This document shows positions 30,581 to 35,605 of a stretch of DNA of 42,018 nucleotides, piece after piece. This DNA comes from Sedimenticola sp. (GTDB taxonomy: Bacteria > Pseudomonadota > Gammaproteobacteria > Chromatiales > Chromatiaceae), in contig JALVEB010000031.1 in the NCBI GenBank assembly GCA_027008705.1, forward strand, positions 1 through 42,018. The letters run 5' to 3'. Numbering within the stretch: the first letter of the stretch is position 1; each line of letters opens with the position of its first letter. The notes under the pieces are model-generated. The model worked only from the letters and a program-made list of their open reading frames with translations. It did not search any database and was not told the origin of the DNA. The translations under genes and the position numbers were made by a program.

Positions 30581-31681
30581 ATGAGAATCCGCACCGCAAA
30601 AGAGGCTTTGTTGAGGCCCTTGCAAGCCGTGAGTGGTGTTGTCGAAAAGCGGCAAACTTTGCCGATTCTCGCCAATATTCTTATAAATGTCGTGAACTCC
30701 AGGATGACTATCACCGCTACCGATCTTGAGCTGGAGATTCGGACTACCTTCGATATCGATGCGGAAACGGATGTTTCCTTCACCTTGCCCGCACGAAAAT
30801 TAATGGATATCTGTCGGGCCTTACCCGCGGAGGCGGCCTTGACCCTGGATTTGGAAGCCAACAAAGCTTTGTTGCGCTCCGGCAACAGTCGTTTCAGCCT
30901 GAGTATCCTCGATGCCAAGGATTACCCCTCGATCGAAGCGACCGATATCCAGGTTGAATTGACACTTCCCGTTCAGGTTCTGAAACGGCTGATTGAGAAA
31001 ACCCAGTTCGCGATGGCGCAACAAGATGTGCGTTACTACCTGAATGGCATGCTCTTCGAGCTGGATTCTTCCGGGATTCGCACGGTGGCCACGGATGGCC
31101 ACCGCCTTGCCACGGCCCGTCATGACATGGAGATCGAGCTGCCCGAGGCATTACAGATCATCCTTCCAAGGAAAGGGGTGATCGAGTTGGCTCGTTTATT
31201 GAATGTCAACCAAGAAGAGGTCAAATTGGAGATTTCCAGTAACCATCTGCGGGTTTCCCAGGGAGACACGCTATTCATCAGCAAACTGATCGATGGACGT
31301 TTTCCGGACTATAAAAAGGTCATTCCACGGTCGGTTCGAAACAAGGCCATCGTGGACAAAGGCAGTTTGAAAGAAGCCTTATTGCGTACCGCCATTCTGT
31401 CGAATGAAAAATACCGCGGAGTGCGTTTCTCGCTTTCGCCAAACCGTCTTGATCTGCTTGCGCACAATCCCGAGCAGGAAGAGGCTGAGGAGTTTCTGGA
31501 AATCGACTATGACGGAGAGGAGCTGATGGTTGGCTTCAATGTGAACTACCTGGTCGACACCTTGAATGCGATCGACTCGGAACAGGTGGAGATCGGTTTG
31601 AACGACGCGAACAGCAGCTCGCTCGTCCATGATACGGAAAGCGACCATACTGCCTATGTCATCATGCCGATGCGGCTTTGA
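30581..31681 (+). CDS. dnaN: DNA polymerase III beta subunit (sliding clamp)
   Basis: A 366-residue clamp, the same length as in E. coli, that tethers polymerase to DNA as a dimer. The N-terminal domain opens MRIRTAKEALLRPLQAVSGVVEKRQTLPILANIL. The three topologically similar domains are visible at about 1-120, 125-245 and 245-366. The conserved end is HTAYVIMPMRL, containing the MPMRL part of the protein-binding cleft. ATG 30581 follows AGGAGCAGAGA. It lies between the candidate oriC and recF; the 184-base gap after it has a TTGACA hexamer at 31801 but no matching -10. Confidence 0.99.
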   Translation: MRIRTAKEALLRPLQAVSGVVEKRQTLPILANILINVVNSRMTITATDLELEIRTTFDIDAETDVSFTLPARKLMDICRALPAEAALTLDLEANKALLRSGNSRFSLSILDAKDYPSIEATDIQVELTLPVQVLKRLIEKTQFAMAQQDVRYYLNGMLFELDSSGIRTVATDGHRLATARHDMEIELPEALQIILPRKGVIELARLLNVNQEEVKLEISSNHLRVSQGDTLFISKLIDGRFPDYKKVIPRSVRNKAIVDKGSLKEALLRTAILSNEKYRGVRFSLSPNRLDLLAHNPEQEEAEEFLEIDYDGEELMVGFNVNYLVDTLNAIDSEQVEIGLNDANSSSLVHDTESDHTAYVIMPMRL

Positions 31682-31865: not shown

Positions 31866-32945
31866 ATGTCGATAGATCAGCTGCGCATCAGCCATTTTCG
31901 CAATATCGCCTCCGCACAATTGGATCTGTCCGATAGGCTTAATCTTGTCAGTGGTCCCAATGCGTCTGGAAAATCTTCACTGATCGAAGCGGTCTATGTC
32001 CTCAGTCGGGCGCGTTCCTTCCGTAGCGCTCGTTTGAACCGGGTGATTCAGAATCAGCATCAAGCCGCCACAGTGTTTTGTCGTCTGTCGGCGGAAGCGG
32101 CGCATGACCGGGTGGCGCTTACCATTGAAAAGGGGAGGACGGTTGCCAAGCTCGATGGAACAACGGTGCCGCGTTTATCCGATTTGGCAAAGGCTTTTCC
32201 GGTGCAACTGCTTACGCCGCGTTCTTATCGTCTGTTGTCCAGCGGTCCGAAAAATCGACGGCGATTGATCCACTGGGGGTTGTTCCACGTGGAACCTCGT
32301 TTTCTGTCCGTGTACAAGCGGTATATGACTACCTTGGCGCAACGGAATGCGGCATTGAAACGTCGTATCGCGCGCAAAGAGTTTCCGGTTTGGGATCATC
32401 TGTTAAGCGAGTTGGCCGCACAGATCCGGCAATTTTCCCAGGTTTACTTCTCTGGTCTGGAGCCTTGCTTGTCTTCGACCACGAAGGCCTTGCTCCCTGG
32501 ACATGAGATTCAGCTCGAGTTTCTTCCCGGATGGGAGGCAGATCGGCCTCTTGCGGATGTCCTGAGAGAGGAGCTGGATAAGGATCTGGAGCGAGGTTAC
32601 ACCCGGAAGGGAAGCCATAGGGCAGATATAAAGATTCGACTCGATGGTCAAGCTATCGATGACTACGGCTCCAACGGACAGCAGAAACTGTTCGTATTCG
32701 CTTTTATGAAAGCGCAAGCCGACTACTACGCCAGTCGCTTACAGTGTTCACCATTGATGTTGCTCGATGATTTCGCTTCCGAGTTGGATCATACCAATCA
32801 AGCTCGCCTGATTCGATTGTTGAATCAACCAGGGGTGCAATCCATATCGACCAGTCTGGAACCCGATGTTCCACATGCCATGCTGTCCGAAGCCAGAATG
32901 TTCCACGTGGAACGTGGCGTGTTCCACGTGGAACATTCTGGTTAG
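31866..32945 (+). CDS. recF: DNA replication and repair protein RecF
   Basis: An SMC-like ATPase that loads RecA at gaps together with RecO and RecR; 359 residues. Walker A is GPNASGKSS (30-38), where Ala replaces the usual Gly after Asn. The signature is SNGQQKL (269-275) and Walker B LMLLDDFASELD (297-308). ATG 31866 gives MSIDQLRISHFRNI, matching the family start, though the ribosome site is poor. Three parS-like sites lie in the gene: one encodes LFHVEP (139-144) and two encode the extreme C-terminus MFHVERGVFHVEHSG. The FHVE repeat at the end therefore appears to be a by-product of DNA-level selection. Codon use here is less GC-rich than in the left-arm genes. Confidence 0.97.
   Translation: MSIDQLRISHFRNIASAQLDLSDRLNLVSGPNASGKSSLIEAVYVLSRARSFRSARLNRVIQNQHQAATVFCRLSAEAAHDRVALTIEKGRTVAKLDGTTVPRLSDLAKAFPVQLLTPRSYRLLSSGPKNRRRLIHWGLFHVEPRFLSVYKRYMTTLAQRNAALKRRIARKEFPVWDHLLSELAAQIRQFSQVYFSGLEPCLSSTTKALLPGHEIQLEFLPGWEADRPLADVLREELDKDLERGYTRKGSHRADIKIRLDGQAIDDYGSNGQQKLFVFAFMKAQADYYASRLQCSPLMLLDDFASELDHTNQARLIRLLNQPGVQSISTSLEPDVPHAMLSEARMFHVERGVFHVEHSG
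32281..32296. promoter_or_regulatory. parS-like ParB binding site 1 (inside recF)
   Basis: TGTTCCACGTGGAACC matches the 16-base parS palindrome with one end mismatch. It encodes LFHVEP, a stretch also conserved in other RecF proteins, so coding constraint could contribute. Confidence 0.65.
32899..32914. promoter_or_regulatory. parS-like ParB binding site 2 (3' end of recF)
   Basis: TGTTCCACGTGGAACG differs from a perfect palindrome only at the last base. Its start is 21 bases from the start of site 3, two helical turns, so both sites face the same side of the DNA. Confidence 0.8.
32920..32935. promoter_or_regulatory. parS-like ParB binding site 3 (3' end of recF)
   Basis: TGTTCCACGTGGAACA is a perfect 16-base palindrome and matches the parS form known from Pseudomonas. 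It overlaps the last codons of recF about 2.5 kb from the candidate oriC, the usual position for ParB nucleation. Confidence 0.87.

Positions 32946-33136: not shown

Positions 33137-35605
<2,469 letters not shown>

Follow-up and report, generated by a model that had tools for sequence, protein, structure and literature searches.

The window analysed here, a 42,018-nucleotide stretch of a Sedimenticola sp. draft genome, carries recF between dnaN and gyrB, and within recF the word TGTTCCACGTGGAAC(C/G/A) occurs three times (Table 1). All three copies lie in one recF frame and each reads Phe-His-Val-Glu, giving WGLFHVEP internally and ARMFHVERGVFHVEHSG at the C-terminus. Site 3 is a perfect palindrome and sites 1 and 2 each show one end mismatch to TGTTYCACGTGRAACA, so that all three fall within the one to two mismatches allowed for the 16-bp parS palindrome. 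Measured from the end of the recF stop codon the sites start at −665, −47 (the extra one) and −26, and the starts of sites 2 and 3 are 21 bp apart. The positions, the palindrome and this spacing are as an earlier note on this DNA had described them. That note had also pointed to a partial copy near 32869 as a hint of duplication; this copy (TGTTCCACATGCCATG) has five mismatches over 16 bases and keeps an intact 8-bp half-site. Outside the three sites the half-site occurs only once on the plus strand of the window; over 42 kb an 8-mer should turn up ∼0.6 times per strand. One extra 8-mer is thus expected by chance, and we rejected it as evidence of duplication.

Table 1. Features at the recF locus of the Sedimenticola sp. 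window.
Feature	Coordinates	Strand	Sequence	Remarks
Putative parS site 1 (internal)	32281..32296	.	TGTTCCACGTGGAACC	Encodes FHVEP; same 16-mer as P. aeruginosa parS1
Putative parS site 2 (C-terminal)	32899..32914	.	TGTTCCACGTGGAACG	Spells FHVER; 47 bases before recF end
Putative parS site 3 (C-terminal)	32920..32935	.	TGTTCCACGTGGAACA	Encodes FHVEH; same 16-mer as P. aeruginosa parS2
Half-site	32867..32874	+	TGTTCCAC	Number expected by chance
recF (359 aa), host of the three sites	31866..32945	+		ORF; NCBIfam TIGR00611, E 1.8e-95
dnaN, upstream neighbour	30581..31681	+		ORF; tblastn places DnaN beside parS in recF-less genomes
gyrB, downstream neighbour	33197..35605	+		ORF, start ATG 33197 inferred; likewise used as query in recF-less genomes

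The three sites are the only matches in the window at up to three mismatches, where shuffled sequences give an expectation of 0.05 and none of the shuffles reached three. Across the whole genome (2,896,895 bases in a 244-contig draft, 99% complete) only three places match at up to two mismatches, all of them in recF, so the random genomic copies that would have spoken against the sites did not appear; with this ceiling a more divergent parS would be missed, and a further parS may possibly lie in a gap of the draft assembly. The sites stand ∼1.9–2.6 kb after dnaA, few in number and clustered near the origin genes. The partner genes whose absence would likewise have counted against a centromere were found in the row parB, parA, gidB, gidA on a 12.8 kb contig (C87), with a single ParB-family match in the genome (TIGR00180, E 5.4e-59, profile search). 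This ParB, of 304 aa, carries GERRWR, the ParB CTP-binding sequence, and the solved structures nearest to it are ParB, Spo0J and Noc proteins (7bnk, 6t1f). It has the features of the chromosomal CTPase type, and CTP hydrolysis is predicted.

A precedent exists in Pseudomonas aeruginosa, where the oriC-nearest parS sites sit in recF (PMC3909081, PMC5521831), parS1 being TGTTCCACGTGGAACC and parS2 TGTTCCACGTGGAACA (PMC4368675 Table 1), and where any single one of the oriC-proximal parS1–4 is enough for segregation (PMC4368675). Both species use the same gene and the same two 16-mers, within an origin cluster with gyrB downstream and with parAB in the gid cluster. Because P. aeruginosa already has these two 16-mers in recF, as parS1 and parS2, the arrangement is not new in kind and Sedimenticola sp. 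adds another case of it. Unlike P. aeruginosa, it has a third site that makes an in-frame 21-bp doublet at the recF end, and no equivalents of parS3–parS10 were found in its genome at up to two mismatches. Chromosomal ParABS systems in general, such as those of Caulobacter (ParB 6t1f) and Bacillus subtilis (Spo0J), share the ParB family, the gid-parAB order and a 16-bp palindrome near origin genes, whereas parS positions vary between phyla. The full-text literature covered, the main parS survey aside, yielded only the P. aeruginosa statements on parS in recF.

We determined the conservation of the sites in recF sequences covering 48 loci from the family of the window, one genome apiece from 90 families in the class and five named loci, calling a site at up to one mismatch to TGTTYCACGTGRAACA. 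At least one site was present in 47 of these 48 family loci; in the class sample 83 of the 90 gammaproteobacterial families had one or more at the two corresponding places of recF (both places in 67, internal only in 10, terminal only in 6, neither in 7). The internal-to-terminal spacing ranged from 591 to 669 bp and was divisible by three in 118 of 119 cases, and the 12-base core occurred 146 times in recF genes of the class sample compared with 14.5 times after synonymous shuffling. Synonymous drift of the sites, which the earlier note would have taken as a refutation, was seen nowhere across the class. Among 126 genes with an internal FHV[EK], His was CAC and Val was GTG in 125 each, against gene-wide uses of 0.50 and 0.39 in the same genes; Glu was GAA in 113/113 (gene-wide 0.55), Lys was AAA in 13/13 and the preceding codon ended in G in all 126. 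At the terminal site Glu was GAA in 102/102 and Lys AAA in 22/22. Internal Lys was always paired with TTT and in no case with TTC, in keeping with what the palindrome (TGTTTCAC/GTGAAACA) demands (Fisher 2e-7), and the two palindromic positions co-vary over all sites (Fisher 9e-8); these codon and co-variation counts take the sequences as independent, which is not strictly so, but the families are far apart at synonymous sites.

recF genes without the internal site also lack the FHVE residues, reading FHHAEA, FHAEPG, FHSEPS, FQAAPQ and others in their place. No parS was found in recF of 12 Pseudomonadota outside the Gammaproteobacteria. Some ParB-positive families, G194 and G205 among them, place parS elsewhere and not in recF, which makes recF the preferred, not the obligatory, host of parS. 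In two loci both recF sites are altered alike (TGTTCCACATGGAACA twice in L095, TGTTTCATATGAAACA twice in L151), and in a third, L162, they are altered similarly (TGTTCTACGTAGAACA with TGTTCCACGTAGAACA); such matching changes suggest a shifted ParB specificity.

Genomes without ParB, or without recF between dnaN and gyrB, allowed the DNA element and the protein to be separated. parS is kept in the dnaN–gyrB gap of nine genomes without recF there (loci L183, L189, L192, L193, L195, L196, L197, L198 and L035), recF being found absent by profile search in eight and, in the ninth (G042), judged absent from its 39-base gap. In one genome lacking recF, G245 (L194, C48:1286-1774), TGTTTCACGTGAAACC is repeated 12 times at exact 43-bp steps just upstream of gyrB, a tandem parS array. 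Conversely, seven near-complete genomes of the window's family without ParB (G021, G028, G053, G057, G058, G091 and G113) had no site at up to one mismatch, ParB being scored by a family profile that also picks up plasmid ParB; these are apparent losses of ParABS within a family that otherwise has ParB and parS. One of them, G028, keeps recF with the internal codons GTC TTT CAG GCT GCG and a tail without FHVE. Three of its congeners with ParB hold both sites, and in a fourth, G103, ParB is present and the sites lie elsewhere. Three genomes are doubtful: G036 and G258 carry sites with no ParB detected, probably through an assembly gap in the case of G036, and G114, also without ParB, has one candidate match. 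These three aside, the DNA is conserved with ParB and lost without it.

An obvious alternative is that FHVE(P/H) is a conserved RecF protein motif, the likeness to parS being a by-product of codon choice. The internal context WG-x-FH-x-E and the tail F-x-V-x-x-G do occur in RecF proteins without parS, that of Escherichia coli included. The codons, however, are near-invariant across families although the same genes vary elsewhere; ∼90% of cores are lost on synonymous shuffling, the change from Glu to Lys goes with TTT so that the palindrome is kept, and none of the 126 internal FHV[EK] stretches is more than two bases from the parS consensus. Moreover, loss of the site went together with loss of the residues, and parS remains in place where recF is gone. 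On the codon evidence we rejected FHVE as a motif of the RecF protein, and we regard this reading as very unlikely and close to refuted. Still harder to credit is that the sites are chance matches or relics of a functionless repeat family. Local changes in copy number are indeed seen, in the doublet here, the broken copy of a sister species (see below) and arrays elsewhere, but only 0.05 matches were expected in the window, the sites hold one place across families and are absent where ParB is absent, and conservation at synonymous positions refutes the idea.

Regulation offers a different function, in which the sites are mainly ParB-dependent operators that tune the dnaA-dnaN-recF-gyrB operon rather than act in segregation. 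An excess of ParB in P. aeruginosa lowers expression around parS1–4, gyrB included, yet at native levels genes beside the intragenic parS1 and parS2 are unchanged when ParB or the sites are missing (PMC5521831). With no other parS found in the genome, segregation in Sedimenticola sp. would need the recF sites, and we consider a mainly regulatory role improbable. We conclude that the three recF sites are most likely (probability about 0.95) the parS of a chromosomal ParABS system and that the origin region, where ParB is predicted to bind, is its centromere. The uniqueness of the sites, the presence of parAB and the absence of synonymous drift all favour the proposal of the earlier note that this is the nucleation point of the chromosome's ParB.

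From the established biology of ParABS, ParB dimers would bind the palindromes, load as CTP-dependent clamps and spread from the sites over recF, dnaN and gyrB, and ParA would pull the sister origin complexes apart; SMC loading may occur as well. This part of the origin region would thereby serve as the centromere of the chromosome, with recF as host because it belongs to the origin cluster dnaA-dnaN-recF-gyrB. Selection for ParB sites would then freeze the codons in two parts of RecF, an internal FHV[E/K] stretch and another in the tail. Frozen codons, the co-variation of Glu/Lys with TTC/TTT, parS in recF-less gaps and ParB-less genomes without sites together argue that the residues at the sites are dictated by the DNA rather than by RecF, in the tail only in part. 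The internal Pro of E. coli is His or Gln in 72 of 126 genes, where the palindrome is more complete. The tail F-x-V-x-x-G, by contrast, already occurs in RecF from Pseudomonadota outside the Gammaproteobacteria and from E. coli (FRVQEG, FEVDQG, FTVEKG), where there is no parS. The terminal site hence sits on an older protein pattern, and the claim that the DNA had shaped the RecF C-terminus holds for the His, the Glu/Lys, the His/Gln and the codons, which the DNA adds, and fails for the tail pattern itself.

If this reading is right, recF offers a clear natural example of a DNA element that has kept amino acids fixed in an unrelated and well-conserved protein over very long time. FHVE and FHVK in gammaproteobacterial RecF should not be taken for functional protein motifs, and recF deletions or allele swaps in bacteria with ParABS may disturb chromosome segregation through the DNA. 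recF would also be a place to look when locating the centromere of a new genome.

E. coli lacks a chromosomal ParABS, and strain K-12 served as the one named control in our sample that has recF but no ParB. The last 40 bases of its recF (L202) contain ATGTTTACCGTGGAAAAGGG, which agrees with TGTTTCACGTGGAACA in 13 of 16 bases and stands where parS is found in relatives. One might read this as an eroded centromere or parS fossil, but the likeness is no more than suggestive, since F-x-V-x-x-G is an older feature of RecF. A broader proposal, which we judge evenly poised between right and wrong, is that dnaN-(recF)-gyrB is the ancestral gammaproteobacterial centromere, as old as the class, that RecF was constrained to encode two ParB sites, and that lineages in which ParABS was lost, E. 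coli for instance, keep an eroded remnant at the recF end. Were this true, the E. coli RecF tail would in part be the fossil of a lost centromere.

The C-terminal doublet extends beyond Sedimenticola sp. In the sister species (G001) a perfect site occupies the position of site 2, likewise 47 bases before the recF end, and 21 bp past it stands TGTTCCACGATACGGAACG, which looks like that word interrupted by an insertion. With a perfect copy and, at an equal 21-bp offset, a broken one in the sister species, the doublet probably dates back at least to the origin of the genus. Both congeners have one perfect palindrome in the doublet. The 21-base step equals two helical turns and seven codons, and the doublet may give redundancy. 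Eleven other sampled genomes carry additional copies close to the end of recF, and G108 (L208) has five more parS-like sites downstream of its recF end at steps of ∼75–81 bp.
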